Of a DNA stretch of 64,000 nt, positions 1,459 through 60,669 are shown piece by piece. The first letter of the stretch is position 1. The number at the start of each line of letters is the position of its first letter. The DNA lies in contig OZ020251.1 of NCBI GenBank assembly GCA_963971285.1, positions 5,580,001 through 5,644,000 of the forward strand, written 5' to 3'. The translations under genes were made by a program, and so were the position numbers. The DNA is from Astropecten irregularis. Taxonomy: Eukaryota > Echinodermata > Asteroidea > Paxillosida > Astropectinidae. The notes under the pieces are model-generated. The model worked only from the letters and a program-made list of their open reading frames with translations, made no database searches and was not told the DNA's origin.

Positions 1459-4400
1459 TTAACAGCCAAGCAACTCCAGACGCATTCTGACGTTTCCCTC
1501 GTGATCAGTCGGTATTATACGCACTATAGCAGCCATGATGCTCGGATCCAAAGTATTGGTGACGGCAGTGGTAGCATCGGTGTTGCCATCAAACTCCTGA
1601 AATGTGAAAAGTGTAATAAAACAGAAAACATTCAGTTGAGGATTATTCTCTTAATGTAAGCAAAACGATTCACGGGACCATTTATCATTTGGGCGTTGAC
1701 GAATGGAAAGGTTCATTACAGGATCGTTAATATAGCAACACAGAAATGTTCAGAAATGTACGTATAACTTGCAGGGTATGAAGATGATGCTGTTAGAAAC
1801 ATACCGTTACAAAAATTCCGCCTGAAATGGCTTCTTTTATTTATTTTTTTAATTAGTAAAACAAAGACTAAAACATTTTTGATCTTAGGGCAGGATAAAA
1901 ACCATTCTTTATGTGATTGCTGTTCTGTCACCTTTACCAATAATTTATTATACCTTTAAGACAACTGAATGGGAGACTTTTGGAATCGGTCTTGAGTCAA
2001 CAGCGCACGCGCAAACCATGCTTGCGCAATTGTGAGCTTGCGCGCGTTGTATTGCGCGTGCGTGCGCGTGCGTGCGCGTGCGTGCGCGTGCGCTGTTGAC
2101 TCAAGACCGACTCTCCAAAAGTCTCACATTCAAGGCATGACTGCAAGGAGGCTCGTGGTTTTCTTGAGCAAATTTCACATTGGCGAAATTTATTCAGTTT
2201 CAATGTCAATAATTCGAAGACGGTTAGGGTCTTTTGAAGAAACCCAGGCACACTGGTCAAAAATGTCGTTTCTCAAACTGGGCGAATCACGCGGGGCATC
2301 TTATTGTATTGCAAAACCTTAAAGGTAGTATCATACTTTGGTAAGAAACCAAAACAGAAATGTTCACAGATTTACGTATAATTTACTGGGTATGAAGATG
2401 TTGGTGATAGAAACATACCGTTAAAATTGTTCCGCCTGAAATGGTGTATTTATCCAGAAATTAGTAAATCAACAATCAAAATTCTTTTTGATCTTTTAAA
2501 AGAAATACTGTGGCGGTTTTTCACTGTTTTCTCAAAAAGTGGGCACCGTATGGGACTGAAATTTTCACAGATGACTGTTACTGTATCTTCCTTGATATTT
2601 TTGCCCACGAATCTGTATTTCTTTGACAAAAACCAAAGTATGATATTACCTTTAAGTAATGGAGGCTGATTACAATGCATACCTTGATGGATCCGGCTTC
2701 CTTCACGTATTCATCGCCAGAAGAGGGGGATTGCTTGAACATCACTTTATACTTCTTAACATACTTGCTTTCCCCATCACCTTGTGTGATGATACCGGTC
2801 ACCATGGTGATATCAACCAGGTCCACCTCAATCCAGGAGCCGGCCTCACTTTTAATGTACAAAGTAAAGTAAGAAAGTAAAGAAAATTGAAATAAAGGTG
2901 GCAATGAAATGTTCAATCAGTGAGCACAATATCCATATCTGATAATTACGCATAACGTTGCCATCACCCTATTTGGCACATTGTTATACATGTATATTGG
3001 GCAGAACAAAGGGCGCGAACTGAACGTGGAGAATGACGCCATTTTGTATTGATAAGCGCGAGGAGTGGCAAAAGAAACCTTACTGTTGATGACATTTTGT
3101 ATTTCAGGTAAAGTCACATCAAGCTGTCTTAAGCCCTTTTCACACGACGCCAAAAAAACTCTCAACCATTGAGAAATTCTCTCAAGGTTGCGAAATCTTA
3201 CAAAAGTGTACTCGTGTGAAAGGACACCAATGCTTGAGAGTGACCGACGTCCCTGGTGAATCCTTGAGAGATTTTGACCGAGGTCCAGACCTACGACAAA
3301 ATTTCTCAAGGGACCCTTGCGAAGTGCTTTGCACTGCGCATGCTTGTGTTTTCTATGTGTTTCATTGCCTTTGCCGACCGCGCGCACGCCCGCGTGCTTT
3401 ACGCGCAACCTCAGCGTCGTGTTGGTACTAGCAGCGTTTACATTCATAAAATGCATAGTCTATCGATTACCGGCGTTCCGTCTCAAGGGAGGCTTGAGAA
3501 ATGTTACACTGTGCCGTGTGAAAGGACGCAAAAGCAGCCAGCGTAAAACCGTTTTGTAAGATTTCGCAACCTTGAGAAAATGTCTCAATGGTTGAGAGTT
3601 TTTTTGGCGTCGTGTGAAAAGGGCTTTATTCGCAGCTCAGCTTGAGTTGCATGACAGTAATGGGCGCATACTGCAGGCTAAAAATTTAGTAAAAAACTTT
3701 ACTTACCTATTTCTAAACATCGTCCCAACCAATGAACTTGAAATTGACAATAATTTTCATGTTGAGAGCATTCTCTGTCTACTGTTAAAATATGGACAGC
3801 AAAAATATGTCTTTAAAAAGTAGCCGACTAGCCGGTATACCCTAAGTTCCGATGTCTCTCTAATGTTTACTTTGAGATGCTAACGTGTTTCCCTATTTGT
3901 AATTATAATGATAATACAAAAATACCTACGTGGCTGCCTCCCAGTAAGAGGGTCCGTTTAGACGCGCATTTCGGGCTATGAAGTCGTCTTTATAACCTGA
4001 AGAGGTCATACGACTATCAGGAATGGCGCCGCTCTCCAGGCCCAAAGGTCTAGGACACTCTACTGTTGGATCAAGGAAAATAAAACGCAATACCTGTAGC
4101 AAGCAAACGTTGTCTTTGCATTCCAATAAATCAAACGAATTATGTCAATAGTTTAAATAAACGAAATTTATAAATCACTTGTTGCAGTCTCACCTTCAGT
4201 ACTCGGTTTCTCAGTAGTTGGTTCCTCGGTAGTTTGTTCCTCGGTAGTTGGTTCCTCGGTAGTCGGTGCCTCGGTAGTCGGTGCCTCGGTAGTCGGTGCC
4301 TCGGTAGTCGGTTCCTCGGTAGTCGGTGCCTCGGTAGTCGGTGCCTCGGTAGTCTGTGCCTCGGTAGTCTGTGCCTCGGTAGTCGGTGCCTCGGTAGTCG

Positions 4401-5918
4401 GTGCCTCGGTAGTCGGTGCCTCGGTAGTCGGTGCCTCGGTAGTCGGTGCCTCGGTAGTCGGTGCCTCGGTAGTCGGTGCCTCGGTAGTCGGTGCCTCGGT
4501 AGTCGGTGCCTCGGTAGTCGGTTCCTCGGTAGCCGGTTCCTCGGTAGCCGGTTCCTCGGTAGCCGGTTCCTCGGTAGCCGGTTCCTCGGTAGCCGGTTCC
4601 TCGGTAGCCGGTTCCTCGGTAGCCGGTTCCTCGGTAGCCGGTTCCTCGGTAGTTGGTTCCTTGGTAGTTGGTTCCTTGGTAGGTACCTCTTGTGGTTGGT
4701 TCTGCGTTTGTGGTTTGTTAGGTAAATGGGTAGGTTAGTGGGCAGCCTTTATAATTATTTTAGTGAATAAATTAGTTTATAAGCTTTGTTCGGTTGCAAG
4801 TCAGAAGCCTCGGAAAGTAGCACTCTGTTATCAATACTATACCCAGGGCTCGTGTATGGGGCAGCGAACATTAGCAATGTTATCAAATCGGTAAAATAAA
4901 AATTACGAGGATAGCTCACAGAGAAGCAGATGGAAATTTCTAAAAGGCTGCAAAAAAGCACAAGAACCCCACTAAAATAATTCAGAGAATTATACTAACT
5001 TTAATAACAATATAAATGAAATCATCAAATAACCACAAGTGAAATTGGCTGAGTTAAAAGTCATTGAACATTGAACAAAGAAATATTGACTGAAGCGGGA
5101 TTCGAACGGTGACCTCCTGAATACCGTACAGGCGCTCTACCAACTGAGCTATCCAGCCCTACATCGGTGGTGTCCCTATAATAGTCAATTATGAAGTTAG
5201 ATATAGGTTTTCCCTGTCATTTTCGGCAAATAAGCGGACAATCTAAACGCTGCGTCATTCCATTTCGCGTGAAACTGCAAGGCACCTCAAAATACTCATT
5301 CGATTTCACTTGACATGCAATTGTAAACAAGCGTCAGGCTAATAAAAATAATCTCCTTTGAATTTAAAATTTTATTCCCACAGCATTCAAATTCGCGATG
5401 GCGTTTGGCAGCGTGCTTAATTGAATGCCGATTTCGCATGGCTAAACTGACTGACCCTAGAATTTAATTCTATGCTATAGAAATACATCAAAGTGAAATC
5501 GAGTGACGGTTTCAACCGCGAAGGCAAAATCACGTCAACACGAATGCGGGAAAATGAAATTGGCTGCTCATTTGCCGAAAATTACCGGGAAAATGTAAAT
5601 TTCAATATTCACCATGAATTCGTAGTACTTGAAGCGGGGATCTTCTTCCAGTTTGTCGGGATCAGTCTGGCCGGATTCCCGGTTCAACTCGCAGACCCCG
5701 GTCTCCTTACCGAAGTTGAACGACGCGCACTCGGAGTTACGAGAGCAGAGCGCCGAGCATCGCAGGGCCGAACTGACGGCGGATTTCTTGCTGAAGACGC
5801 TCCCAACCAGTCTACCGGCATCACGCTTCACGAAGTCATTTTGTCGTGTTTGCACCTGACAAACCACCAACGTGATCCCTAGAATAACGCAAAGAATCTT
5901 GAACAACGGCGACAGCAT
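1459..5918 (-). CDS. Gene F: secreted PAN-mucin-F5/8C protein, 5 exons
   Basis: Coding exons: 5918-5613, 4701-4179, 4062-3930, 2848-2683, 1596-1459 (stop TAA). Phases join as 0, 1, 2, 0 and give 421 aa. Exon 1 encodes a signal peptide (MLSPLFKILCVILGITLVVC) and a PAN/apple module with Cys spacing ALRCSALC..SEC..VCELN. Exon 2 is a Thr/Glu/Pro/Ala stalk of pentapeptides (TTEEP, TTEAP, ATEEP), expected to be O-glycosylated. Exons 3-5 form a full F5/8C (discoidin) domain: ECPRPLGLESGAIPDSR, GSWIEVDLV, VTGIITQGDG, EFDGNTD, and a final RLELLGC. No membrane segment follows, so secretion is likely. All donors are GT and acceptors AG. An alternative exon-2 donor at 4194/4193 is also in phase. Introns 3 and 4 carry MITEs. 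The ATG was chosen because it begins the hydrophobic leader. Ligand and role are unknown; F5/8C domains often bind sugars, lipids or collagen. Confidence 0.85.
1972..2126. mobile_element. Short CG-rich inverted-repeat element (MITE)
   Basis: Arms of about 40 bp (GAGACTTTTGGA..CGGTCTTGAGTCAAC and its reverse complement) enclose a CG-rich core with repeats of GCGTGCGCGT. It interrupts intron 4 of gene F: related introns of genes D and B read straight through the site without it. Confidence 0.75.
2323..2651. mobile_element. TTAA-flanked MITE, copy 2 (empty site known)
   Basis: The element is flanked by TTAA on both sides (2319-2322 and 2652-2655). The homologous intron of gene B at about 50,053 has GCAAAACCTTAAGTAATG with a single TTAA, so this is the unoccupied site. 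Termini are AGGTAGTATCATACTTTGGT and its near reverse complement. TTAA duplication is typical of piggyBac and Kolobok elements; no transposase is present. Confidence 0.9.
3132..3625. mobile_element. 494-bp MITE with TTA duplication, PIF/Harbinger-like
   Basis: Inverted termini of about 75 bp begin AGCCCTTTTCACACGAC and enclose a unique CG-containing centre. TTA flanks both ends (3129-3131 and 3626-3628). Related introns of genes D, G and B carry the uninterrupted site. The superfamily is suggested only by the 3-bp TWA-type duplication. Open frames seen across it are by-products of the inverted repeat. Confidence 0.85.
5088..5185 (-). mobile_element. tRNA-like SINE head
   Basis: Minus-strand Pol III A box (TAGCTCAGTTGGTAGAGC) and B box (GTTCGAATCCC) at tRNA spacing. 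The T stem and anticodon stem do not pair properly, so a working tRNA is unlikely. The same sequence recurs near 26.2, 45.4 and 52.1 kb, each time inside a duplicated unit. Confidence 0.75.
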
Positions 5919-6485: not shown

Positions 6486-6793
6486 GGTTTGGAGTAGTAT
6501 CATACTTTTGGAAGAAACCAAAACAGAAATGTTCACAGATTTAGGAATAACTTACAGGGTATCAAGATGGTACTGGTAGAAACATACCGTTAACATTTTT
6601 CCGCCGGAAATGATGTATTTATCTAGAAATTAGTCAAACAACGACCGAAAATCTTGTTGATCTTTTAAAAGCTTAAAAATAAAAGAGAAAAGACTTAAGA
6701 AATACAGAGGACTGTTACTGTATCTTCCTTGATATTTTTGCCAATGAATCTGTACCTCTTTCACAAAAACCAAAGTATGATATTACCTTTAAA
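6486..6793. mobile_element. TTAA-flanked MITE, degenerate copy
   Basis: Clear similarity to the TTAA family through the AAACAGAAATGTTCACAGAT block and the right terminus TATGATATTACCTTTAA. The left terminus is decayed and part of the interior is missing. Confidence 0.75.
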
Positions 6794-7004
6794 ACGCATT
6801 GGGAATTAGAGCGAGGGACACTGGTCCTTGGCGCAGAATTGGTTAAATGTACACGGCGGCCTCGTTGCGCTATTCTGGGCACTTTTTGGCGCCAACGCAT
6901 GGCTTTATCATGACTTGAAAGGTCTTCCAAAAGTAGAATAGAACATTCCACATGAATAAACGGTATAATTTAGCCGTTTTCATGAAAAAACGAAAAACCG
7001 TAAG

Positions 7005-11338: not shown

Positions 11339-12354
11339 TTACGATAATATCAACCATCGTGATCGTGGGTCGTACTCTGATCTGATGAAGCAATCTTGAT
11401 GACACGAAGCCAGTACTGCATGCATAAAATGTTAAAATAAATCGATTAAAGGTAGTTTCATACTTTGGTAAGAGTCCATAACAGAAATGTTCACAGATTT
11501 AAGTGGAATTGAATGGCACGGTACTCGTGAAATTATTTCATTTTATATATACTTAAACATAAATATGCATTCACTCAGTTATAGCACAATGGAATGCTCG
11601 TCACCATGTCGAGCATATTAATATGCTCGACATGGGAGTTTTGTCTTTAAATGTTAGTGTCAAAACTCCCACTAGTAAACCAGAGAGCAGAAGCATTGCT
11701 ATTTTTAGCAGTTCACATCGAACATTCAATGGTTACACTGTGCTTATAATAATATAACCGAGTATGGGTACTTAGGGAGACTTTCCTATAGGGCCAGCCG
11801 TGCACAAACTTTACTTACCTTTTTCTTAACATCCTCAAAACCAGAGAATTTGAAATTGACATACTAGTTCATATTGAGAGCATTCTCTGTATTCTATTTA
11901 AATATGGACAATAGAATATGTCTCTAAAAGGTATAGCTGGTACCTTAGGGTGACATCGGGGTCTCCCTAGGGTATCTCCCTAATTCCCGATGTCTCACAG
12001 TGTTCACTTTCCGAAGCTAACGGGTCCCCCTAATACCTTTTTTGTAAATATACGTGTAATGTTATATAGTTTGAAACTCGTCCAAAGGAATGCAGATGAT
12101 TTCTCTAACGATAGTATGTTAAAACACATTGTCATGTCTTAAAAAATAAACGTTGGTTAACGCAAGTGGATTGCCGTATAATCTAGTGCGATGAAGCACA
12201 TTAACCTTTAAATCATAGATAGTAAGACACATCCTATATATGGCATGGAACTCATTCCTGTCGCCCATACACTGAAGTATATCCATCCTAAGCAGTAATG
12301 CACCTTACCTGTGAGTGTTGATAGCAGCAGAGCACAAGCTACAGCCCCCTCCAT
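11339..12354 (-). pseudogene. Gene H: relic of a Cys-rich mucin-discoidin gene
   Basis: The signal-peptide exon (12354-12309, MEGAVACALLLSTLT, donor GTAAGG, phase 1) joins in frame to an exon-2 start (acceptor after 11,415) reading VLASCHQDCFIRSEYDPRS, then leaves the family sequence and stops at 11,339. The rest of the Cys-rich module and all downstream exons are absent; sequence beyond the break is transposon-rich. A spliced transcript could make only about 40 residues. Between the two exons lies a partial TTAA-MITE end (11,452-11,510). Confidence 0.8.
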
Positions 12355-27748: not shown

Positions 27749-28222
27749 TTAGAGGTGTTCGGTCTTTTGTTCGGTCTTTGTTATATGTTTTTTCCACCAG
27801 TACTTCGCTCGTGGTAATTTCAAATTATTTGGTTCCTCGGTAGTTGGTTCCTCGGGAGTTGGTTCCTCGGGAGTTGGTTCCTCAGTAGTTGGTTCCTCGG
27901 TCGTCGGCTCCTCAGTAGTTGGTTCCTCGGTTCTTGGTTCTTCGGTAGTTGGTGCCTCTGTTGTTAGTTCATCGGTAGTTGGTTCCTCGGTAGTTGGTTC
28001 CTTGGTATTTGGTTTCACGGTAGTTGGCTCCTCAATAGTTGGTTTCACGGTAGTTGGCTCCTCAATAGTTGGTTTCTCGGTAGTTGGCTCCTCGGTAGTT
28101 GGTTCCTCGGTAGTTGGCTCCACGGTAGTTGGTTCCATGGTAGTTGGTTCCTTGGTAGTTGGTGCCTCTGTAGTCGGTTCATCGGTAGTTGGCTCCTTAG
28201 TTAAATGGTTCTTCGGTAATTG
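27749..28222 (-). other. Orphan TTEEP-coding block in the spacer, copy 1
   Basis: An open minus-strand frame follows a plausible acceptor (CATATTTCATTTAG before 28,222) and reads QLPKNHLTKEPTTDEPTTEA, then TTEEP/TIEEP/TTVKP repeats, ending KYWWKKHITKTEQKTEHL and a stop. The frame and tail are conserved in the copy at 46,952-47,425 but the tail is lost at 54,403. It lies between the last exon of one family member and the first exon of the next. It may be a relic stalk exon or an alternative 3' exon. Confidence 0.5.
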
Positions 28223-31771: not shown

Positions 31772-31904
31772 ATCAAAAAGTACTCGGACTCGGCCCGTAT
31801 TCGGCACTGTGTGTACTCGGAAAACTTGGTACTCGACTACAACACTGGTGATGGCCCAATCTAAACAAATATATGACAAGTAACATAAAGATGCGCTATT
31901 AATA

Positions 31905-37400: not shown

Positions 37401-37756
37401 TTTGTAAATATAACATAAATATTGTTTCCTTCAGGCCGGCGACCATTTTCGTAGAAGAAGAGACAGCCAGCCGAGAATTGTAAGTCACTTTCATCCCCCG
37501 AGTAGCCCACTGAATTGAGTTCGCATCGGTTGTCCCCCTCGTAGAAGTTGAAGGATCTGCATTCGTAGTCCTGCAGGCAAATTCCCGCACACCCCATGGG
37601 GGACGGCGCCGATTTGGTGCTGTAGCTCCATCCGCTAAGGGCCCGATCAGCAAGATGGAAACGGCTGAAGTAGCCCCGTCGAACATAAGGGCTGTTTGAT
37701 GAACCAATTGATGTCGTAATCTTTGCAACAACCAGGACGATTTTTAGAATGAGCAT
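34443..37756 (-). CDS. Gene E: PAN-type member with the longest TTEEP stalk, probably damaged
   Basis: Exon 1 (37756-37444) encodes a leader MLILKIVLVVAKITTSIG and a PAN module (GCAGICLQDYECRSFNFYEG, CELNSVGYSG, FFYEN), donor GTCGCC, phase 1. The stalk exon (36573-34829) opens in phase with DEEPCAITTTTSTTMKP and runs about 110 pentapeptides, mostly TTEEP. In sister genes this exon ends EKPSTEGATTT before a GT donor; here that end is replaced and the frame meets TAG at 34,829-34,831. A small inverted-repeat insertion lies directly at this point. One F5/8C exon follows (34575-34443, ECPRPLSLESGAIRDSR, donor GTAAGT). No second or third F5/8C exon is found before relic G. Either a truncated secreted PAN-mucin is made, or the gene is dead. 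The upstream ATG at 37,813 is in frame but would bury the leader. Confidence 0.6.
34688..34824. mobile_element. Small inverted-repeat insertion at the gene E stalk exon end
   Basis: Termini ATTAATGATTTGCGTCGGG and its exact reverse complement. The minus strand interior has a tRNA-like GCTCGGTGACCTAGCGG stretch and GTAGGTGAAGGGCAAGCCTA, which is related to text near 19,900 and 770-820. It replaces the region where the exon donor should be. Confidence 0.75.
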
Positions 37757-42284: not shown

Positions 42285-45200
42285 CTACGGACGACATCCG
42301 AGCAACTCGAGTCGCATCCGAGGTTCATTGTGCCAGGCAGTCGGTTCAATACGCACAGCGGTGGTCACGATGCACGAGTTAAACGTATTGGTAACAGGAG
42401 TGACAGCATCGGCAAGGTTTCCATCAAACACCTAAATTAAATTGTGCAACAAAATGCATAATTAGCCACACTGATTCAAATCTCGAATACAGGAATACGC
42501 CCCATCCCCTCCCCTCCAGCAATATGCTTGAATGTTTAATCGTACGGCAGGACAAGCAACAATTATCGAATTATTAATCGATTCCTTTTGTCGGCGCATT
42601 CAATATAAATTAATTGATACAGACTATACCGATGTTAGTTATTGATCATTAAGCATACCTTGGGAGCTCCACTAGCATATGTGACATATGTGTACTCTGA
42701 CGAGCCCTCCATCTTATAAGACACTTTGTACCGTTTGGCACGCTTGGTGTTATCGCCTTGTGTAACTATCCCAGTCACCACTGTACTTCCAACCAGGTCC
42801 ACCTCGATCCAGGAGCCTTCGGCACTAAACAATAAACGAATTTGATTGGATTTGAAATGGTTATTCAGTAAAAAATAAATGCATTTGCGGTCAAAGGCGG
42901 AATTTTTTGCATGGAAAGGATTGAACTTAAAATACAATAAAAGTACACTGGAAAATTTACAAAGAAAGAAAAGAGAAACAAAAGTTCATTAACGCATCCA
43001 ATTATAATTTTCGATAATACAATTTAAAAATAAGATTTCAGAAAATAGGAATTACAAGGTGGACTAAGACAGTGACTCAATGTGCATGATTGACACAAAC
43101 TAAGGCCTGCATCTCAAAGAAAGAACAAACTTTGAAAATACTGGCATTAAGCTTATTTTGGTTTTTAAAATACGAGTTATGTAGGGAATGGCGCTGTTTT
43201 TTTAACGCTGTGTTCTACATCCGAATTCAGGACAATATGAAGAGGATTATAACTACTGTATGTAACTTAGTTTGAGGGAGTAAATTTGGTTTATGCGGTA
43301 AGAGTCAAGTTCAATGGACTTAGCAAATAATAACATAATTGTTTACGTCTCGCTTCCTGAGAGACGAGTCCCAATTGATCTAGTGCATTCATGTATCCTG
43401 TATAGGCATCTCCAAGAATGATCTTACAAGCTCTCTTCTGTATTTTGTTCGATTGAATGGCAATAGATGCGGGTGTGTCCCCCAGACCACACTGGTGTGG
43501 CATACCCAAGTACTGGTCTAACAAACTAGTATAAATCGTGACCAGGTCATGTTTTGGTTGAATGGTTGAGCTAATCAGTAATCTTACTTGGGAATCAATA
43601 AGTAATAAAATGAATTAATGTTTAATTGCGACATGAGTTATTTTTGTTACCTACGTTTCAGGGCACCAATAAATGGCGGGGTTGTTAAGACGTGCATCTG
43701 AGGCAGGGTGTCCGCTTTTGGCACTCGATGCACTCATGAGTTCATCAGGGATGGTGTGGTCTTCAAGACCCAAGGGCGTTGGGTTGAAACACTCCACTGT
43801 TGGAACAAAGCAATCAAAAGATGGACACTAGTACCAGTATACCGGTGTGCTGAAAATAATTGAAGAACGGTGACGACGGAATTACGATCGTATTTCGGTA
43901 TCTGCCGCATTTAGAGGAAGAGCCGAATTTAATGCATGTATGGTGTTTATGTAAACATTTATAAGTTATCGAGGGCGATAGTATAAAACATACTTGTCGG
44001 CGCTCCAACTGTAATATCTTCGGTGGTTGGTTCCTCGGTAGTTGGTTCCTCGGTGGTAGTTGGTTCCTCGGTAGTTGGTTCCTCGGTAGTTGGTTCCTCG
44101 GTAGTTGGTTCCTCGGTAGTTGGTTCCTCGGTAGTTGGTTCCTCGGTAGTTGGTTCCTCAGTAGTTGGTTCCTCGGTAGTTGGTTCCTCGGTAGTTGGTT
44201 CCTCAGTAGTTGGTTCCTCGGTAGTTAGTTCCTCGGTAGTTGGTTCCTCGGTAGTTGGTTCCTCGGTAGTTGGTTCCTCGGTAGTTGGTTCCTCGGTAGT
44301 TGGTTCCTCGGTGGTAGTTGGTTCCTCGGTTGTTGGTTCCTCGGTAGTTGGTTCCTCGGTAGTTGGTTCCTCAGTAGTTGGTTCTTCGGTAGTTGGTTCC
44401 TCGGTAGTTGGTTCCTCGGTAGTTGGTTCCTCGGTAGATGGTTTCTCGGTAGTTGGTTTCTCGGTAGTTGGTTCTTCCTCTTTTGTATGTAATAAACGAG
44501 CAGAATAAATTGACGGATTACCGAATTGAAGCATGCAACGACGAGCTTAAACGTAGTTGCAGTGTATGAACCTTTATATGACCAATATTATGATATGAAC
44601 AATATTATGATGAATGAAAGTATTATTTTCGAATTTGGCTTTGAATCTTTGCAAATGGACTGATTAAATACCTGAAGCCTTGAATGTCAGCATAAACGTA
44701 TGTGACGAATATACTAAAATCGGTATGACCAAAATATTTATGAACCAAAGGAGTGTATTTCGAATTTCGTTTTGAATCTATATGCAATTTGATTTTCCAA
44801 AGTACATTTAAATGGTTTAACATGAAGTCATACCTGTGTAACATCCAAAGAATGTTCTAATTTCCTCAGGATCATCCGAAAGGAAAAGCCCATCCAGATA
44901 GTAGGGCGCTCCCTGGAGGTACGAGGAGGCAGGGATGTTCATCCCACCGAGACGTATGGCAGTGCATTTGCAGGGATCTTTGTACGGTAAGAACCAACGA
45001 GGTGGTTTACCAGATCGTGGGTCATACTCTGATCCGATGAAGCAAACTTGATGACAAGATACAAACGCTGCATGGCCAAAATTGAAATGGGAATGTTACA
45101 TTCATATATACCGTGAAATGTTATTTCAAATGCTTTAATATTGCAGAAACAGATGGAAATGATGCCAAATTGTTTTATTTTCAAGATCTTCCAAATAAAA

Positions 45201-45869
45201 CTGCATTTAACGTTGGACCGTTTCATTGTGAGCAGCTTCTATTATTTGGTCCTAAGAAAAGAGACTGCATTTTGCGCTTTGTGCCGGGGTGTGGCATTAT
45301 GTATTGTACTCACTCATAATTCAAATATGTAGCACAATTTCACTTCTCCTGAAGACAGTCAGAGTAAACGCCAGAATTAAGAAAAATTTACTGTAGCGGG
45401 ATTTGAACAAGCGATCTTCGGAGTTCCGTACCGGCGCTCTACCAACTGAGCTATCCAGCGCTATGTTGGTGGTGTCGCTAATAGTCAATCATCATTGAGC
45501 GTTAGGCAGTCAGAAGCCATAGAACCACGCACACACCGCTATATCCAAAGGATCATCATAATTTTTGTATAGATCCTTGCAATAATGTTGCAACCTGAGA
45601 AACAGTACATGGGGGATCACTCAAAGAGGATGCGGCTTTTTAATCAATGTGGATATTTAACTCCATACCCGGTCACGTTCATGTTAAAACACGCGCATAT
45701 GAGACATGTAAACACAGCCTACATCTGTTCGTATCCGTCTGGTTTGACAATACCTTAATTAAAAAAAAAAACACCAATAAGAGTGTCTAATATTGAGACC
45801 TACATGTACAACAAGCTTACCTGTATAAAGTGTTGATACCAGCAAAGCGTAGACCACAGCTCCGTCCAT
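42285..45869 (-). CDS. Gene C: divergent Cys-rich-mucin-F5/8C protein, 6 exons
   Basis: Coding exons: 45869-45821, 45067-44834, 44479-43994, 43796-43655, 42824-42659, 42431-42285 (TAG). All phases match; 407 aa. Leader MDGAVVYALLVSTLYT. Exon 2: FVSCHQVCFIGSEYDPR, PCKC, SSYLQGAPYYLDGLFLS, FFGCYTG. Exon 3 is an almost pure TTEEP stalk of about 30 units with two TTTEEP variants. Exons 4-6 form F5/8C but differ most from the other genes: ECFNPTPLGLEDHTIPDELM, GSWIEVDLVGSTVVTGIV, NSCIVTTAVRIEPTAWHN, and an end RLELLGCRP. The extra Cys and two extra C-terminal residues are unique here. Intron 4 holds a LINE fragment. The alternative first exon at 46,598-46,553 also joins in phase. Confidence 0.85.
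43291..43545 (-). mobile_element. LINE reverse-transcriptase fragment in gene C intron 4
   Basis: The minus frame reads SNKIQKRACKIILGDAYTGY, NALDQLGLVSQEARRKQLCY, the conserved post-catalytic C-terminal block of CR1/L2-type LINEs. No other part of the element is seen. Confidence 0.8.
45385..45480 (-). mobile_element. tRNA-like SINE head, gene C unit
   Basis: Same A box and B box arrangement as at 26.2 and 52.1 kb, within intron 1 of gene C. Stems mispair, so not a working tRNA. Confidence 0.7.
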
Positions 45870-46552: not shown

Positions 46553-46598
46553 ATGTGAGTGTAGATAGCAGCAGAGCACAAGCTACAGCCCCCTCCAT
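46553..46598 (-). CDS. Alternative signal-peptide exon of gene C
   Basis: ATG to a GTAAGG donor encodes MEGAVACALLLSTLT in phase 1, the same phase as the first exon at 45,869, so either exon can splice to exon 2. This is the only intact copy next to an intact gene; sister copies in genes B and D are broken. Use as an alternative promoter and leader is inferred. Confidence 0.6.
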
Positions 46599-46951: not shown

Positions 46952-47425
46952 TTAGAGGTGTTCGGTCTTTTGTTCGGTCCTTGTTATATGTTTTTTCCAC
47001 CAGTACTTCGCTCGTGGTAATTTCAAATTATTTGGTTCCTCGGTAGTTGGTTCCTCGGGAGTTGGTTCCTCGGGAGTTGGTTCCTCAGTAGTTGGTTCCT
47101 CGGTCGTCGGCTCCTCAGTAGTTGGTTCCTCGGTTCTTGGTTCTTCGGTAGTTGGTGCCTCTGTTGTTAGTTCATCGGTAGTTGGTTCCTCGGTAGTTGG
47201 TTCCTTGGTAGTTGGTTTCACGGTAGTTGGCTCCTCAATAGTTGGTTTCACGGTAGTTGGCTCCTCAATAGTTGGTTTCTCGGTAGTTGGCTCCTCGGTA
47301 GTTGGTTCCTCGGTAGTTGGCTCCACGGTAGTTGGTTCCATGGTAGTTGGTTCCTTGGTAGTTGGTGCCTCTGTAGTCGGTTCATCGGTAGTTGGCTCCT
47401 TAGTTAAATGGTTCTTCGGTAATTG
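46952..47425 (-). other. Orphan TTEEP-coding block in the spacer, copy 2
   Basis: Same open frame, acceptor and C-terminal tail (KYWWKKHITRTEQKTEHL) as at 27,749-28,222, with few changes. No matching donor is seen at its end, so if used it would be a terminal exon. Confidence 0.5.
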
Positions 47426-49175: not shown

Positions 49176-49196
49176 TTAATCGGATAAGCAGATTCA

Positions 49197-49458: not shown

Positions 49459-52400
49459 TTAGCAGCCAAGCAACTCCAGGCGCATAACGACGTTTCCCTC
49501 ATATTCAGTAGGCAGTATACGCACTGCAGCAGCCATGATGCTCGGATTAAACATATTGGTGACGGCAGTGATACCATCATTGTTGCCATCAAACTCCTGA
49601 AATGTCAACAATATAATAACTCTCAGCTAAGGCGGTATTATCTAAAGATTTGTTGTGGCTTTGACGCATGCATTAGGACATGGGAATTCAATGCATGACT
49701 GCAAAGGAGACAAATACATTCCTTCCTCAAATATCATACATGTATTGGCAAAAGTAATGTAGTTTTGTTTATGTTTATTATGGAGCCTGGGTGAATAACT
49801 CGAAGACGTTGAGAGTTTCCTGAAGTAACCAAGAGCCTGTCGAAATGGAGAAAATGGATACCTTAGGTTCTCCAGATTCCGGCGGCTCGTGGTTTACTTG
49901 AGCAAATTTCACATTGGCGAAAATAATTCATTCAGTTACAATGTCAATAACTCGAACACGGTGAAAGTTTCCTAAAGAAACCCAGAGCCCACTGGTCAAA
50001 AATGTCGTTTTCTCAAACTGGGGAATCACGCGGGGCATCTTGTATTGCAAAACCTTAAGTAATGCAGGCTGATTAAAATGCATACCTTGATGGATCCGGC
50101 TTCCTCCACGTATTCATAGTCAGAAGAGGGGGATTGCTTGAACATCACGTGATACTGCATTACCCACTTGTCATCCCCATCACCTTGTGTGATGACACCG
50201 GTCACCATGGTGATATCAACCAGGTCCACCTCAATCCAACAGTTGATCTTACTTCAAAGTAAAAAGGGGGAAAAAGTAAAGAAAACCTGATGGTGAGAAT
50301 GCATATTGAAACAGTTAGTATGATGTGCAATATTGTCAAAATCAATACGCGGGACGTTGCTAGAACTAGGAGTCTGTTTAGCTCATGAGTAGCATTAATA
50401 AGATTTTAGGTTTATCCACATCAAGCTGTATAATTCGCAGCTCAGCTTGTTTTATAGTAGTGAATTCATATTGTACATTAACAAAAACAGCAGATGAAAT
50501 GATAATTATAATGTAAAGGATAATTAAAATATAAAGGATAATTATAATATAAAAGATACCTACTCGTCTGCCTGCCAGTAAGAGTTGGTATTTAGACGAG
50601 CATAATTGGCTTCTCGACCGTCTACAGCCGTTGAAGCAGTCAGACGACTATCAGGAATGGCGCCGATCTCCAGGCCCGAAGGCCCAGGACTACACTCAGC
50701 TGTTGGATCAAGGAAATAAAGTACAATCATACTGGTATCATGCAAACTTTACCTAAGCCTGTCACTGCGACACAACAACATTTTTCCATCTAATGACGTC
50801 AAAGCGTTGTCAATAAACAAAGTTTATACACTGTAATTTACTTGTTGTAGTCGCCCCTTCAGTGCTTGGTTTCTCGGTAGTTGGTTTCTCGGTAGTTGGT
50901 TCCTCGGTAGTTGGTTCCTCGGTAGTTGGTTCCTCGGTAGTTGGTTCCTCGGTAGTTGGTTTCTCGGTAGTCGGTTCCTCGGTAGTTGGTTCCTCGGTAG
51001 TAGTTTTCTCGGTAGTTGGTTCCTCGGTAGTTGGCTCCTCGGTAGTTGGTTTCTCGGTAGTCGGTTCCTCGGTAGTTGGTTCCTCGGTAGTAGTTTTCTC
51101 GGTAGTTGGTTCCTCGGTAGTTGGCTCCTCGGTAGTTGGTTTCTCGGTAGTTGGCTCCTCGGTAGTTGGTTCCTCAGTAATTGGTTCATCGGTACTTGTC
51201 TCCTCGGTAGTTGCCTCTTCGGTAGTAGGTCCTTCGGTAGTTGGTTCCTTGGTAGATGGTTTCTCGGTAGTTGGTTCGTCTGCAGGTGGCTCCTCCACTT
51301 CATTTATGCAATAAATAAGCAGAACAAGTCGACTGATTTCAAAATTGATGCCTGGAACGTCGGCATAAACAGAATGACGATTATATTAAAATATATATGA
51401 CCAAAGTATTTATGAACCAGTCAGTTTTTCGAATATCGTTTTTAACCTTTGCCATTGAATTTTCCTCATTTCAAAGATTGAACATGAAGTCATACCTGTT
51501 GGACATGTAAAGAATTTTCGTATTTCTTCGGGTTCCTCTGAAAGGAAGAGTCCATCCAGATAGAAGGGCGCCCCCTGAAGGCACGAGGAGGCAGGGATGT
51601 TCATCCCACCGAGACGTATGGCAGTGCATTTGCAGGGATCTTTGTATGGTAAGAACCAACGGGGTGGTTTACCAGATCGTGGGTCATACTCTGTTCCGAT
51701 GAAGCAAACTTGATGACACGATACCAACGCTGCATGGCCAAAATTGAAATGGGATTGTTACATTCATACCGTGAAACGTTATTTCAGATGCTTCAATATT
51801 GCAGAAACAGATAGAAATGATGCCAAATTGTTCTATTTTCATGATATTCCAAATAAAACTGCATTAAACGTTGGACTGTTTCCTTGTGAGCAGCTTCTAT
51901 TATTTGGTCCTAAGAAAAGAGACTGCATTTTGCGCTTTGTGCCGGGGTGTGGCATTATGTATTGTACTCACTCATAATTCAAATATGTAGCACAATTTCA
52001 CTTCTCCTGAAGACAGTCAGAGTAAACGCCAGAATTAAGAAAAATTTACTGTAGCGGGATTTGAACAAGCGATCTTCGGAATACCATACCGGCGCTCTAC
52101 CAACTGAGCTATCCAGCGCTATGTTGGTGGTGTCCCTAATAGTCAATCATCCTTGTGTGTTTGGCGGTCAGAAGCCATAGAACCACGCACACACCGCTAT
52201 ATCCAGAGGATCATCATTATTTTTGTCTAGATCCTTGCAATAATGTTGCAACCTGAGAAACAGTACATGGGGGATCACTCAAAGAGGATGCGGCTTTTTA
52301 ATCAATGTGGATATTTAACTCCATACCCGGCCACGTTCATGTTAAAACACGCGCATATGAGACATGTAAACACAGCCTACATCTGTTCTTATCCGTCTGG

Positions 52401-52524
52401 TTTGACAATACCTTAATAAAAAAAAACACCAATAAGAGTGTCTAATATTGAGACCTACATGTACAACAAGCTTACCTGTATAAAGTGTTGATACCAGCAA
52501 AGCGTAGACCACAGCTCCGTCCAT
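49459..52524 (-). CDS. Gene B: secreted Cys-rich-mucin-F5/8C protein, 6 exons
   Basis: Coding exons: 52524-52476, 51729-51496, 51297-50842, 50699-50564, 50251-50086, 49596-49459 (TAA). Phases 1, 1, 1, 2, 0 match; 392 aa, the shortest member. Leader MDGAVVYALLVSTLYT then ALVSCHQVCFIGTEYDPR. The Cys-rich module has CHQVC, PCKC, SSCLQ and FFTCPTG. The stalk exon (152 codons) mixes TTEEP, TTEKP and TTEKT. The F5/8C domain reads ECSPGPSGLEIGAIPDSRL, NCWIEVDLVDITMVTG, EFDGNNDGITAV and RLELLGC. Exons 4-6 resemble relic G most. Intron 1 carries a tRNA-like SINE head. The promoter has paired CCAAT boxes. Confidence 0.87.
52045..52145 (-). mobile_element. tRNA-like SINE head, gene B unit
   Basis: A box TAGCTCAGTTGGTAGAGC and B box GTTCAAATCCC in intron 1 of gene B. 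Not foldable as a standard tRNA. Confidence 0.7.
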
Positions 52525-54402: not shown

Positions 54403-54894
54403 TCAAATATTTGGTTCCTCGGTAGTTGGTTCCTCGGGAGTTGGTTCCTCGGGAGTTGGTTCCTCAGTAGTTGGTTCCTCGGTCGTCGGCTCCTCAGTAG
54501 TTGGTTCCTCGGTTCTTGGTTTTTCGGTAGTTGGTGCCTCTGTAGTTAGTTCATCGGTAGTTGGTTCCACGGTAGTTGGTTTCTCGGTAGTTGGCTCCTC
54601 GGTAGTTAGCTCTTCGGTAGTTGGCTCCTCGGTAGTTGGTTCCTCGGTAGTTGGTTCCTTGGTAGGTGGTGCCTCTGTAGTTGGTTCATCAGTAGTTGTT
54701 TCATCGGTAGTTGGTTTCTCGGTAGTTGGCTCCTCAATAGTTGGTTTCTTGGTAGTTGGCTCCTCGGTAGTTGGTTCCTCGGTAGTTGGTTCCACGGTAG
54801 TTGGTTCCATGGTAGTTGGTTCCTTGGTAGTTGGTGCCTCTGTAGTCGGTTCATCGGTAGTTGGCTCCTTAGTTAAATGGTTCTTCGGTAATTG
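54403..54894 (-). other. Orphan TTEEP-coding block in the spacer, copy 3
   Basis: Open after a weak acceptor, QLPKNHLTKEPTTDEP then TTEEP-type repeats with more variants (TTDET, APPTKEP). The frame ends EEPNI and a stop, so the tail of copies 1 and 2 is not kept. Confidence 0.45.
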
Positions 54895-56512: not shown

Positions 56513-59500
56513 TTAGCAGCCATTCAATTCCAGGCGCATTCTGACGTCTCCCTCGTGGTTAATAGGCAGTATACGCACTACAGCAGCCATGATGCTCGGA
56601 TGAAACGTATTGGTGACGGCAGAGGTAGCATCGGTGTTGCCTTTAAACACCTACATTTTAAAATAATAATAACACTGATTACTCTTAGTTAAGGCGATAT
56701 TCTCTTAAGATAAGTGAACCAAGTCATCGAACTATTTTCGTTTGGGCTTTCACACACGTACATGCGAATTCAAGGCATGACTCCAAAGGAGGCTCGTTTA
56801 CTTGAGCAAATTTTATATATTGAAAAAAAATAATTTAGTGACAATGTGATCGAGAGTCTCCTGAGGAAACCCAGAGCACACTGGTTGAAATGTCGTTATC
56901 CAAAACTGTGTTGATCAGGCGAGGCATCATTGTGATGCAAAACCTTAACTAATAAAGACTGATCATATAAGTACATACTAGTCTGTTGTTGGCGTCATTC
57001 ACGTTTTCGAAGGTAGGAGTGTCCGGAGTTTTCTTAAACTGCACTTCATACTCTGTCACCCACTTGTCACCAAAGCCTTGTGTGATGATACCGGTCACTA
57101 TGGTGATACCATCCAGCTCCACCTCAATCCAGCAGTCCTGCTTGCTTCAATGTACAAAGTAAAAAGAAAGTCAAGAAAAACCTATGGCGCAGAATGGACC
57201 CATTAGTATGATGTCCATTGTGTCAATATCTGAGAAATACGTTAGACGTTGATAAAACTAGAAGGCTGTTTGGCTCAATGCTATGAGCTGCTAAAAAAAA
57301 AAGGCGGACTAAAAGTGTTGTTTGTGGGTTTTGTATTGATAATTACAGAAATGCATTAGTTGTACATACGAGTTATGATGAAGACAATTTAAAAGAAATT
57401 TTTACATTTTTAACATCATGGTGTCTTATTGGCAATTCGGCTTGAATTGATTGACAAAAATGGACGCATATTGGAGACCAAAACATGATAAAAAGATAAT
57501 AACAATAACTATGATCATGGGAAGATACATACTTGTCTGCCTTCCAGAAAGTGTTGGCGTTGAGACGACCCTTTGGGGCTTCGAAACCTTTTACAGCAGA
57601 TGACGCCTTTATACGACTATCAGGAATGACGCCATTCTCCAGGCCCAGAGGTCCAGGACTACACTCAGCTGTTGGATCAAGCAAAATGAAGAACATGTAC
57701 AATCATACCTGTAGCATGCAAACTTTACCTAAGCCTATCACTAAGACTATCACAAGAACTATATTCCATCAATTAAACGACGTTGTCAATAAACAAGATA
57801 TACAATTTATGTAAAAAAAATTTTGCCCATCAAAGACTTTTTGAGAGCACAAGAAAAATCATGCGCTGGCTCAGGTGGGATTGGAACCAACGACCTCCTA
57901 CTTAAGTAAGCAGGAAGTCGTTTCCAATCCCACCCAATTATGTTTTCATGTGCGCTAAAAAGACACATAGTGAATGGCTTATCTACGTCGTTGAAGGGCA
58001 ATCCTCGACGAATCAATAATAATTATATAATTTACTTGTTGTAATTGCCCCTTCAGTGCTTGGTTTTTCTGTAGTTGGTTCCTCGGTAGTTGGTTCCTCG
58101 GTAGTTGATTCCTCGGTAGTTGATTCCTCGGTAGTTGATTCCTCGGTAGTTGGTTCCTCGGTAGTTGGTTCCTCGGTAGTTGATTCCTCGGTAGTTGATT
58201 CCTCGGTAGTTGATTCCTCGGTAGTTGGTTCCTCGGTAGTTGGTTCCTCGGTAGTTGATTCCTTGGTAGTTGGTTCCTCGGTAGTTGGTTCCTCGGTAGT
58301 TGGCTCCTCGGTAGTTGGTTCCTCGGTAGTTGATTCCTCGGTAGTTGATTCCTCGGTAGTTGGCTCCTCGGTAGTTGGTTCCTCGGTAGTTGGCTCCTCG
58401 GTAGTTGGTTCCTCGGTAGTTGATTCCTCGGTAGTTGATTCCTCGGTAGTTGGCTCCTCGGTAGTTGATTCCTCGGTAGTTGGTTTCTCGGTAGTTGGTT
58501 TCTCGGTAGTTGGTTTCTCGGTAGTTGGTTCCTCGGTTATTGTTGGTTCCTCGGTAGTTGGTCTCTCGGTAGTTGGTTCCTCGGTAGTTCGTTCATCTGC
58601 TGACTGTTCCTTGGTAGTTTGATCATCCGCAGGTAGATCCACTTCATTTATGCAATAAATAAGCAAATTAAATCGACGTATTACTAAATTGAAGCCTGGA
58701 ACTTAAGCATAAACTAATGACGATTATATTAAAATTTGTAAAACCAAATTATTTATGAACCAGTGAGTATTTCGATTATTGTTTTGAGTGTATGCCATTG
58801 AATTCAGTCCTCATTTAAATTGAACCTAAAGCCATACCTGTTGGACATGTAAAGAATTTTCGTATTTCCTCAGGATTCTCTGAAAGGAAGAGTCCATCCA
58901 GATAGTAGGGCGCCCCCTGGAGGTACGAGGAGGCAGCGATGTTCATCCCACCGAGACGTATGGCAGTGCATTTGCAGGGATCTTTGTACGGTAAGAACCA
59001 ACGGGATGGTTTACCAGATCGTGGGTCATACTCTGTTCCGATGAAGCAAACTTGATGACACGATACCAACGCTGCATGGCCAAAATTGAAATGGGCATGT
59101 GAGACTCACAGCAAGAAACGACCCTTCAAAATCTTCGTTTGCAAAAACAAAACATAGATGGCAATGGTGCCTAAAATTATTCTTATGAACAGGAGTCAGG
59201 TTGGCGTAGCGGTTCTTCTTTCGCCTTTCACCTCTGTGGACCGGGTTCAAGTCCGGCTCGGTTCACAAGTAGATTGGGATTTTAGTCCCTGCCTGATTCC
59301 GTGGGTTTTACCCGGAATATAACTCTGGGGTTTTCCTCCCACCTCTAAAACTGTATCTTCTTCTCATCATCTTTCCATAACAGGTTTCATCAGGCTTGCG
59401 AGCTACAGTGCCTTGGTCACTTTTGATGAATCCTTGGTGTCATGACCAGAAATAAATAAAAATAATAATAAATAATTACATCCAAATAAAACACTGTTTA

Positions 59501-60669
59501 ATACATTGGAGTGTTTTCTTCCCTATTAGACATCTCTACATCAGCATATTCTATTACTTGGTCCTAAGAAAAGAGACTGCATTTTTGTACATTGTGTTGG
59601 GTTGTGGCATTATGTATTGTCCTCACTAAGGGTGCATTCGTTTAGCTCCCCCGGGTCGACACAAGTGAACCTCGTCCCCATTTTCTAGCTTGTTTTGTGC
59701 AGTAAAACACGATCATTCCCAGAAAGGGCTGACCAGGGGGAGCTAAACGAATGCACCCTAATATAGGTTGTGCAGTCACGTGATCAGGACGCCATTTTGG
59801 ACGGCAACGCTGTACACATGTATAATGCACGTACGTATAGTGTATGTAACCCACATGAGTTCGCGTAGCTTGCAAATCAACCGGACGCAGAAGTGCGTGC
59901 ATATGATGCTGTCTGGTACGTACGCGTACGCGTGCTGTCCAAAATGGCCGATAAGTGCAGACGTCACGTGCACGCTCTCTATAAGAGGATATAGCCAGAG
60001 ACAGCCAGAGTATACTGGCCAGAACAACTAAAATAACTGGAGCGGGATTCGAAACCTCTAAAATTTCGCACATACCGATAACTCCCAAGGATAATTTACA
60101 GATTCATGGGCAAAAATATCAAGGAAGATACAGTAGCAGTCATCTGTGAAAATTTCAGTCTCATACGGTGCCCACTTTTTGAGAAAACAGTGAAAAACGG
60201 CCACAGTATTTCTTAAGTCTTTTCTCTTTTATTTTTGATCTTTTAAAAGATTTTCGGTCGTTGTTTTTGTTAATTTTTCGATAAATACACCATTTCAGGC
60301 GGAAATATTTTAACGGTAGGTTTCTACCAGCATCATCTTCATACCTTGAAAGTTATATGTAAATCTGTGAACATTTCTGTTTTGGTCTCTTACCAAAGTA
60401 TGAAACAACCTTTAACTTGTTCAAAAAAAATAACGCTTTGCCATTTCATTCTATACCTGGCCACACTAGTATTAAAACACGCGTAAAATGAGACACATGC
60501 ATCATATCCTACATCTGGCTATAGCTTGATACATATCCGTCTGGTAAGTCAATACGTTAATTTAAAATAAAAAGCCGCACTAAGAGTGTGTAATATTGAG
60601 ACCAACATGTACAAGCTTACCTGTATAAAGTGTTGATACCAGCAAAGCGTAGACCACAGCTCCGTCCAT
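56513..60669 (-). CDS. Gene A: secreted Cys-rich-mucin-F5/8C protein, 6 exons
   Basis: Coding exons: 60669-60621, 59071-58838, 58641-58036, 57668-57533, 57144-56979, 56650-56513 (TAA). Phases 1, 1, 1, 2, 0 match; 442 aa. Leader MDGAVVYALLVSTLYT. Cys-rich module SCHQVCFIGTEYDPR, PSRWFLPYKDPCKC, SSYLQGAPYYLDGLFLS, FFTCPTG; the fifth Cys of genes B and D is Tyr here. The stalk mixes TTEEP and TTEES. The F5/8C domain reads ECSPGPLGLENGVIPDSR, DCWIEVELDGITIVTG, VFKGNTDATSAV and RLELNGC, with a distinct middle loop (FKKTPDTPTFENVNDANNRL). Exon 5 ends in an unusual CTA-GTATGT junction. Intron 1 holds SINE and MITE insertions. No second leader exon is seen, since family homology stops at a hAT-like insertion upstream. 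Confidence 0.86.
57865..57932. mobile_element. Hairpin/SINE-like insertion in gene A intron 3
   Basis: Same insertion as 19,770-19,849 in gene D; the right arm is shortened here. Confidence 0.65.
59200..59475 (+). mobile_element. tRNA-derived SINE with central domain
   Basis: Head AGGTTGGCGTAGCGGTTCTT with B box GGGTTCAAGTCCGG, a body with GTGGGTTTTACCCGGAATAT and GGGGTTTTCCTCCCACCTC, and an (AATAA)n tail. The body looks like one of the conserved central domains shared by metazoan SINE superfamilies, but I cannot say which. It lies on plus inside gene A intron 1. Confidence 0.75.
59630..59758. mobile_element. 129-bp PIF/Harbinger-like MITE
   Basis: Termini GGGTGCATTCGTTTAGCTCC and its reverse complement, with TAA on both sides (59627-59629, 59759-59761). 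The GGG start and TAA duplication fit PIF/Harbinger. Confidence 0.85.
59765..59990. mobile_element. CGCCATTTTGGAC MITE, copy 1
   Basis: Imperfect inverted ends carry CGCCATTTTGGAC on the left and GTCCAAAATGGCC on the right, around a core rich in GTACGTACGCG. An inverted copy lies at 62,627-62,852. Confidence 0.75.
60092..60411. mobile_element. TTAA-flanked MITE, left-truncated copy
   Basis: The right terminus with TTAA (60412-60415) and interior are present; the left terminus is missing. Contains GATCTTTTAAAAGAT. Confidence 0.75.

Follow-up and report, generated by a model that had tools for sequence, protein, structure and literature searches.

A run of genes in the starfish Astropecten irregularis pairs two kinds of N-terminal domain with one kind of repeat stalk and a C-terminal F5/8C (discoidin) domain, raising the question of what such proteins do and how their halves came together. 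Discoidin domains owe their chief fame to blood clotting and to the neuropilins. Here, we analyse a window of 64,000 nucleotides (contig OZ020251.1, positions 5,580,001 to 5,644,000) and confirm that it contains a real tandem cluster of secreted discoidin-family genes on the minus strand.

Gene models and architecture

Genes A to E (Table 1) each yield a spliced model with GT-AG introns and without an internal stop up to the stop codon of the F5/8C domain, in agreement with the five open multi-exon genes of the original prediction; the cluster limits that it gave, 1459 and 60669, coincide with the end of the last exon of E and the start codon of A. A to D encode, in order, a signal peptide, an unrecognised Cys-rich domain, a TTEEP stalk and an F5/8C domain, while in E a PAN domain takes the place of the Cys-rich domain ahead of the stalk and F5/8C domain. 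The signal peptide of A is identical in B and D and carries one change in C, in which intron 1 spans ~5.6 kb. Every intact gene has a hydrophobic leader, a stalk of Thr/Glu/Pro repeats and one C-terminal F5/8C domain, which ends 0 to 2 residues before the end of the protein, so that no membrane anchor follows it. The ten stalk arrays, nine of them large and the other small (4.7 units), are tandem repeats with a 15-bp base. The stalk joins the F5/8C domain in phase 1 in A to E. The front joins the stalk in phase 1 in A to D, whereas the best model for E has phase 0 and F is ambiguous; a phase-1 stalk acceptor is also present in E, but a phase-1 donor is absent after the PAN domain. Thus, the predicted compatibility of phases around the stalk holds on its 3' side only.

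Other copies in the window depart from this organization. The frame (34829-36631) of the 1.7-kb array of F closes at a stop codon (TTEES, stop), and only F5/8C exon 1 was found 3' of the array. F is probably broken; an unusual splice is conceivable because six GTA/GTG sites lie inside the array. H also looks broken. The original prediction had assigned a Cys-rich front to A to D and H, a PAN front to E and F, and the shared stalk and F5/8C back end to the relics. These fronts are borne out in A to F, but the H copy at 30.2-31.5 kb has no recognisable front (the earlier label possibly denoted another copy); in the relic arrays R1-R3, the stalk is present, but a search of the window found no F5/8C exon belonging to them. 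Differing flanks rule out R1-R3 as ordinary stalk exons of the A to E type, and Pfam returned nothing above cut-off for two open frames nearby. Substitution counts in R1-R3 and the open frames nearby are small.

Table 1. Features of the discoidin cluster, in window positions
Feature	Position	Strand	Basis
Gene A exon 1, signal peptide MDGAVVYALLVSTLYT, ends in phase 1	60621..60669	-	splice model; signal function judged by eye
Gene A exon 2, unrecognised Cys-rich domain, phase 1-1	58838..59071	-	splice model; no Pfam, NCBIfam or PDB match
Gene A exon 3, TTEEP stalk	58036..58641	-	tandem-repeat and splice model
Gene A F5/8C exon 1 (spike 1, first part of spike 2)	57533..57668	-	splice model, Pfam
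Gene A F5/8C exon 2 (end of spike 2, spike 3)	56979..57144	-	splice model, Pfam
Gene A F5/8C exon 3 and stop	56513..56650	-	splice model, Pfam
Relic stalk array R1, own flanks	54411..54890	-	repeats, flank comparison
Gene B exon 1, signal peptide	52476..52524	-	splice model
Gene B exon 2, Cys-rich domain	51496..51729	-	splice model
Gene B exon 3, TTEEP stalk	50842..51297	-	tandem-repeat and splice model
Gene B F5/8C exons	49459..50699: 50564-50699, 50086-50251, 49459-49596	-	splice model; Pfam 1.7e-16
Relic stalk array R2, own flanks	47032..47421	-	repeats, flank comparison
Second signal-peptide exon MEGAVACALLLSTL, upstream of D	46557..46598	-	sequence
Copies of the MEGAVACALLLSTL exon	12313-12354 (open), 27350-27391 (stop), about 53950 (frameshift)		sequence
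Gene D	42285..45869: signal peptide 45821-45869, Cys-rich 44834-45067, stalk 43994-44479	-	splice model
Gene D divergent F5/8C exons	43655-43796, 42659-42824, 42285-42431	-	splice model; Pfam 1e-19
F, PAN exon from 37756, giant array, single F5/8C exon 1 (34443-34575)	34443..37756	-	Pfam, frames, repeats
H, front not found; array remnant 31701-31771 and F5/8C exons	30251..31790	-	repeats, sequence comparison
H F5/8C exons, open, near B in sequence	31400-31535, 30917-31082, 30251-30388	-	sequence comparison
Relic stalk array R3, own flanks	27829..28218	-	repeats, flank comparison
Gene C	17900..26654: signal peptide 26606-26654, Cys-rich 20777-21010, stalk 19948-20580	-	splice model
Gene C F5/8C exons	19452-19587, 18870-19038, 17900-18037	-	splice model
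Truncated Cys-rich remnant	11348..11413	-	sequence comparison
Gene E exon 1, signal peptide and PAN/apple domain, ends in phase 0	5613..5918	-	Pfam PAN_1 5.1e-11
Gene E stalk	4179-4701	-	start at 4701, after CAG
Gene E F5/8C exons	3930-4062, 2683-2848, 1459-1596	-	splice model; Pfam 3.9e-18

Domain identities and closest known systems

Both profile searches proposed with the original prediction gave matches. In a scan that covered B, D, E and A, the Pfam family F5_F8_type_C (PF00754) was found in all four spliced sequences submitted (whole B, 1.7e-16; backs of D, E and A, 1e-19, 3.9e-18 and 2.3e-18), from profile position 2-4 to 126-127 of 127. PAN_1 (PF00024) matched both PAN exons, those of E (42.7 bits, 5.1e-11) and F (26.9 bits, 4.3e-6; gathering cut-off 21.4), and only these. 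The terminal Cys pair EC...GC is present in 6/6 aligned backs (A to E and H), and the three spike loops of E could be placed by alignment to factor V C2. The nearest PDB relatives of the E back are factor V/VIII-type C domains, followed by neuropilins. Together, the Pfam matches and PDB relatives rule out that the F5/8C exons are chance ORFs. An F-type lectin model was absent among the Pfam families reported up to E = 0.1 for the four sequences, in which the other matches were two of low complexity on the repeat and weak unrelated ones below cut-off. In gel-forming mucins, vWD/C8 or cystine-knot domains flank the repeats; by contrast, Pfam detected no vWD, C8 or cystine knot in the full B protein, where F5_F8_type_C_2, Extensin_1 and HC2 appeared below cut-off beside F5/8C.

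The Cys-rich front of A to D matched no Pfam or NCBIfam family with four members scanned and no PDB sequence at E up to 10, and no relative was confirmed in either of two contig collections (viral and prokaryotic). AlphaFold2 with the four paralogs gave no confident fold (pLDDT 46). This domain is a target for structure solution.

Factor V/VIII C domains, neuropilin b1 and lactadherin share with the cluster the same PF00754 domain over its full length, including all three loops. However, these are vertebrate multi-domain proteins, whereas each protein of the tandem family described here bears a single F5/8C domain, with divergent loops, on its repeat stalk. Similarly, the fronts of E and F score above cut-off as PAN but, unlike PAN/apple proteins, comprise one PAN domain that occupies a single exon together with its leader and precedes a repeat stalk. 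Tandemly expanded lectin-like families of bivalves, e.g., C1qDC, are also reported to be duplicates of secreted recognition-type domains (PMC6835236); their domain differs from F5/8C and the likeness is one of general pattern only. Among the matches listed in literature searches on architecture and pattern, none reported an F5/8C family with a stalk and a PAN or Cys-rich front.

Separate histories of fronts and backs

Two computed comparisons show that the two halves of these genes differ in history, with the change-over at or near the stalk array. First, we compared 700 bp on each side of 10 arrays (blastn, E ≤ 1e-4). Upstream, 6/6 pairs among A to D match, and none that includes E, F or H. 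Downstream, 15/15 pairs among A, B, C, E, F and H match, and none that includes D; the flanks of R1-R3 (27.8-, 47.0- and 54.4-kb arrays) match one another only. Flank homology switches around the array; fronts and backs have been re-paired. Second, D is close to A to C in front (92-98% identity over the 400 bp before the start codon, 98-100% in the signal exon, Ks 0.19-0.29 in the Cys-rich domain) but distant in the F5/8C domain (Ks 1.55-1.96). Thus, the module swapping of the original prediction is supported, by the flank-homology switch and the contrast in divergence rather than by phases. The identity before the start codon, and that of 83-99% in the first 150 bp of intron 1 of A to D, rule out coding constraint alone as the cause of the likeness of the fronts. 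The 3' 150 bp of this intron have 57-73% identity in 5/6 pairs, so that front homogeneity is uneven. Trees of the A to D quartet differ in depth between front and back, and their difference in topology is not decisive: the front favours A+D over C+D by 1.4 log units, and the back favours C+D over A+D by 5.3.

Where the halves were joined bears on mechanism. Recombination inside the 15-bp array could re-pair fronts and backs with the frame kept. Alternatively, and with a modest chance of being right, they were joined by recombination in introns, i.e., by exon shuffling with matching phases. Downstream homology begins at the array border in only 2/15 pairs (A-C and B-H); in the other 13, its start is offset into the intron 3' of the stalk (as much as ~310 bp in one member), and the switch may, therefore, lie in this intron. 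The phase 1 of this intron in A to E and the 1-1 phases of the Cys-rich exon fit such shuffling. By contrast, the PAN-to-stalk junction of E is best modelled in phase 0, upstream homology among A, B and C reaches the border of the stalk exon, and the B-H match begins right at that border.

Divergence of the discoidin loops and candidate roles

Differences between F5/8C copies are mostly amino-acid replacements and are focused in the three ligand-binding loops (spikes) and one further stretch. In factor Va (PMC11257402) and in neuropilins (PMC8945599), these loops form the face that contacts the membrane or ligand. Among A, B, C, E and H, omega is 2.18 in the spikes and 0.71 in the rest (2ΔlnL 42.4 over one omega); this comparison and the selection tests that follow draw on a single assembly, with five or six sequences that include a broken copy. 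Spike omega exceeds 1 (2ΔlnL 15.3, or 12.2 without the broken H), and 0/200 and 0/200 simulations at a spike omega of 1 reached these values. A, B and C alone gave a spike omega of 1.72 (p = 0.034). The spikes were delimited with the alignment already seen, a concern that is lessened, not removed, by two observations: 0/300 random placements of blocks of equal length fit as well as the spikes, and M2a, which needs no loop definition, is preferred over M1a (2ΔlnL 16.46, p = 2.7e-4; 6/9 sites with posterior above 0.8 in the spikes), although gene conversion among paralogs can inflate such site tests. In unguided windows, the second-strongest fast peak (2ΔlnL 10.3, columns 93-103) lies outside the spikes and ranks above spike 3 (7.0) and spike 2 (6.1). 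The Cys-rich front is under purifying selection (omega 0.41 for signal peptide and Cys-rich domain, below 1 at p = 0.0098).

On balance, and judging from sequence, we lean towards secreted recognition proteins on stalks, encoded by a tandem gene family, with halves of separate history and loops driven apart by selection. Loops that appear driven to differ suggest varied targets, and diversifying selection in ligand-binding loops supports a recognition role because such selection is not expected of a mucus protein whose role is purely structural. Among the roles originally proposed (mucus, adhesion or immune recognition), recognition thus gains support, while immune, gamete and mucus roles are not separable. 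In such proteins, the stalk would be O-glycosylated and keep the discoidin domain at a distance from the front, which may oligomerise or anchor the protein, and changing ligands, either glycans or lipids of microbes or molecules on gamete surfaces, may drive loop divergence by selection.

Gamete recognition, with loops shaped by sperm-egg conflict as suggested for oyster sperm bindin, would be a special case of this recognition family, and we consider it unlikely. In a review (PMC5712786), oyster sperm bindin is described as an F-type lectin with a discoidin-like fold, a positively selected binding pocket and domain-shuffling recombination that makes variants. The positive selection in the F5/8C loops agrees with this pattern, in that a recognition-type fold has selection clustered at its binding face, a likeness of pattern only, with one fast stretch here outside the loops. 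However, the same account describes one to five repeats per protein of an F-type lectin rather than an F5/8C domain, and recombination in an intron within the lectin domain rather than at a repeat stalk; moreover, the cluster has several paralogs and two kinds of front, and the pattern alone cannot tell a gamete role from immunity. Equally improbable in our view are structural proteins of mucus or adhesive secretions, with F5/8C as glue and divergence mostly due to relaxed constraint. The long Thr/Glu/Pro arrays, pairwise Ka/Ks near 1 over the whole domain in several pairs (e.g., A-B 0.94 and B-E 1.02) and an omega just marginally below 1 outside the spikes (2ΔlnL 3.67 and 4.05) fit this idea, but a spike omega above 1 and the preference for M2a speak against it because relaxed constraint predicts at most 1. 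Less likely still is a largely decaying array in which the apparent selection on loops stems from gene conversion between paralogs and the small number of sequences: F, H, R1-R3 and the 11.4-kb remnant appear broken and identity is mosaic along introns, but five genes are intact with GT-AG borders, the front is under purifying selection and the spike result holds without H and without E.

If the reading as a family of stalked recognition proteins is confirmed, selection has here diversified loops that bind membranes or peptides elsewhere, in tandem genes with a shared front and repeat stalk, and whole halves have been exchanged around that stalk. The locus is a concrete test case for the origin of modular secreted recognition repertoires. 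A bolder idea, which we regard as rather doubtful, is that the mucin-like repeat is both recombination joint and stalk: crossovers in the in-frame 15-bp array, which every copy carries, would swap fronts (unrecognised Cys-rich, PAN and others) and discoidin tips, generating a modular repertoire with tip loops under strong diversifying selection and plausibly variable between individuals. If true, this would make the cluster a combinatorial recognition locus built of discoidin domains.

The window also contains open frames that resemble reverse-transcriptase ends, with no Pfam match above cut-off, and tRNA-like SINEs.

Gene models and domain identity

All genes of the cluster lie on the minus strand, in a window that resembles animal DNA in its split genes, its dispersed repeats and its tRNA-like SINEs. 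The original prediction counted five open multi-exon genes, and this count holds. Once spliced at GT-AG borders, A-D (leader, Cys-rich front, TTEEP stalk, F5/8C back) and E (PAN front instead) are complete, with proteins of 442, 392, 452 and 407 aa for A, B, C and D in these models and of 421 aa for E by arithmetic (a draft of 427 aa minus 6 codons, i.e., 18 nt, with the stalk now starting at 4701). Tandem Repeats Finder detected nine large arrays in the window, TTEEP-like when read on the minus strand, with units of 15 bp (30 bp in the largest array), and an additional small array at 31.7 kb. Exon peptides run against the array-masked window detected F5/8C exon 1 seven times (A, B, C, D, E, F and H), exons 2 and 3 six times each (both missing from F), four full and one truncated Cys-rich exon, two PAN exons, and four leader exons of the main and three of a second type. 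In F, a stop closes the stalk frame and only F5/8C exon 1 follows downstream; an unusual splice is possible, given six GTA/GTG sites within its array. H retains three open F5/8C exons plus an array remnant.

With the exception of the Cys-rich front, the parts of the cluster are known domains. Pfam identified a complete F5/8C domain at the back end of 4/4 sequences submitted, and PAN_1 covers both PAN fronts (E, F). The nearest PDB relatives of the E back are factor V/VIII-type C domains and neuropilins (63 distinct sequences at E-values up to 1e-6). The Cys-rich exon, which spans 77 complete codons and encodes 5 or 6 Cys, had no match in Pfam (0/4 members, E-value up to 10), NCBIfam (0/4 members, up to 1) or PDB sequences (up to 10). 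Its pattern gave 45 matches in viral_contigs and 17 in genome_contigs, with no relative confirmed among them; because these collections are viral and prokaryotic, "unrecognised" here means unrecognised within these libraries. An AlphaFold2 model of the domain was unusable (pLDDT 46).

Separate histories of fronts and backs

The proposed exchange of modules is supported by array flanks whose homology switches sides, but not by intron phase on the 5' side. In a blastn comparison of 10 arrays (700 bp per side, E-value up to 1e-4), upstream flanks matched in 6/6 pairs among A, B, C and D, with no match for E, F or H, while downstream flanks matched in 15/15 pairs among A, B, C, E, F and H. In this comparison, the D downstream flank had no DNA-level match, its F5/8C exons being detectable by protein search, and three relic arrays (R1-R3) matched only one another. 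Upstream homology reaches the stalk exon in A/B/C and, with D, ends 172-193 bp before the D stalk, a weaker segment lying past that point. Downstream homology begins at the stalk border in two of the 15 pairs (A-C, B-H) and later in the other 13, the offset reaching some 310 bp in one member. These uneven borders therefore place the switch in the array or adjoining introns.

Identity among A-D is 92-98% in the 400 bp 5' of the start codon, 98-100% in the leader exon, 83-99% and 57-94% in the first and last 150 bp of intron 1, 90-96% in the Cys-rich exon and 52-83% in F5/8C. Ks of D versus A-C is 1.55-1.96 in F5/8C and 0.19-0.29 in the Cys-rich exon. Among trees for A-D as a quartet, the front favors A+D most (1.4 log units over C+D) and the back C+D (5.3 log units over A+D), the D branch being very long in the back tree; the conflict is mainly one of depth. 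On these alignments, re-pairing of fronts and backs by recombination or conversion in or beside the array would be the simplest account.

Compatible exon phases around the stalk had also been taken to favor swapping. A-D have phase 1 at the leader/Cys-rich, Cys-rich/stalk and stalk/F5/8C junctions, and the two introns within F5/8C are of phase 2 and then phase 0. However, both GT donors 3' of the PAN domain of E are phase 0, and CAG|AACC gives a stalk start in phase 0; a phase-1 acceptor (CAAG|AGGT) is also present, the matching phase-1 donor being absent. Because the E front joins best in phase 0, and F is compatible with phase 0 or 1, the argument is limited to the 3' side of the stalk. Since the units are 15 bp, recombination inside the array would keep the frame whatever the intron phase.

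Selection on the F5/8C spikes

Several results point to omega above 1 in the spikes, the ligand-binding loops of F5/8C. Custom-written maximum likelihood codon models (GY94-type, F3x4, no gene-conversion term) were fitted to the closely related backs of A, B, C, E and H, excluding D (Ks 1.3-2.0). First, a single omega was 0.95, and two classes, with spike limits (34 of 152 columns) set post hoc on an alignment already viewed, gave 2.18 in spikes and 0.71 outside (2dlnL 42.4); 0/300 random placements of three block lengths reached this fit (maximum 28.1). Omega in spikes exceeded 1 with 2dlnL 15.3 (without H, omega 2.15, 2dlnL 12.2), values reached by 0/200 and 0/200 simulations under a spike omega of 1, and omega outside was marginally below 1 (2dlnL 3.67 and 4.05). 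Second, spike omega was 2.00 for ABCH (p 0.0027), 1.72 for ABC (p 0.034), 2.19 for BCEH (p 0.0009) and 1.76 for ACEH (p 0.0076), and 2.87, 2.29 and 2.11 for the three spikes singly (p 0.0002, 0.006 and 0.017). Third, M2a was preferred over M1a (2dlnL 16.46, p 2.7e-4; omega 3.6 at 17.6% of sites), with 6/9 sites of posterior > 0.8 within spikes. The top fast window among unguided 11-codon windows was in spike 1 (2dlnL 15.3), with lower peaks at spike 3 (7.0) and spike 2 (6.1); the second peak (10.3), at columns 93-103, falls in none of the spikes and marks a fourth fast stretch where F5/8C exon 2 ends (around 2683-2720 in E, for example). Whole-domain pairwise Ka/Ks was 0.61-1.02 among A, B, C and E, and 2.37 for B-H (32 versus 4 changes). 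The front (signal peptide plus Cys-rich, A-D) had an omega of 0.41 (p 0.0098 versus 1).

The neuropilin b1 ligand site is described as formed by three loops, with contacts Y297, D320, S346, T349 and Y353 (PMC8945599), and the deepest-inserting residues of factor Va C2 as W2063/W2064 (spike 1), R2080 (spike 2) and L2116 (spike 3) (PMC11257402). Counted along the E alignment, these factor Va residues map to loops 1, 2 and 3. The neuropilin contacts presumably fall in the same three loops as the spikes. A front that is shared or replaced, a stalk, and tip loops pushed to differ would look like recognition proteins with different targets, for which immune, gamete and mucus functions are candidates. 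Among the systems compared here, the closest analogue is oyster bindin, in which the fucose pocket is reported to be positively selected and lectin domains to be shuffled by recombination (PMC5712786); its domain is different, making it an analogue rather than a family member. Among the matches listed in literature searches, neither this arrangement nor this selection pattern was described.

Second leader exon and neighboring elements

Coordinates of additional elements in the cluster
Feature	Positions	Strand
Second leader exon (MEGAVACALLLSTL)	46557-46598, 12313-12354, 27350-27391, about 53950	minus
TTEEP arrays flanked on each side by DNA that only they share	27829-28218, 47032-47421, 54411-54890	minus
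tRNA-derived SINE-like elements	5087-5158, 45388-45460, 52046-52118	minus
Dispersed repeat, up to about 370 bp	1053-1417, 2318-2653, 6494-6813, 29624-29988, 40138-40508, 48814-49179, 60097-60415	
19-bp minisatellites, one unit family	7625-7854, 23290-23604	
Open frames resembling non-LTR retrotransposon polymerase ends (by eye)	24189-25145	plus
	43291-43614	minus
Short open frame MHHWLQWSIAA..	27585-27733, 46788-46936, 54168-54316, 12640-12800	minus

The second leader exon shares its 5' context with the main leader, which in D, C and B follows 0.7-1.5 kb further downstream. The copy ahead of D and the one at 12.3 kb are open, the copy ahead of C is interrupted by a stop and the copy ahead of B by a frameshift; D could use this exon as an alternative first exon. 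The three separately flanked arrays keep an open frame, and the exon-peptide search of the array-masked window found no F5/8C exon with them. The two polymerase-like frames gave nothing above the Pfam cut-off. In E, D, B and C, intron 1 contains these SINE-like elements or, at 26168-26281, similar DNA, and the dispersed repeat occurs in both orientations across the cluster. One of the four copies of the short open frame has an in-frame 3-bp deletion.
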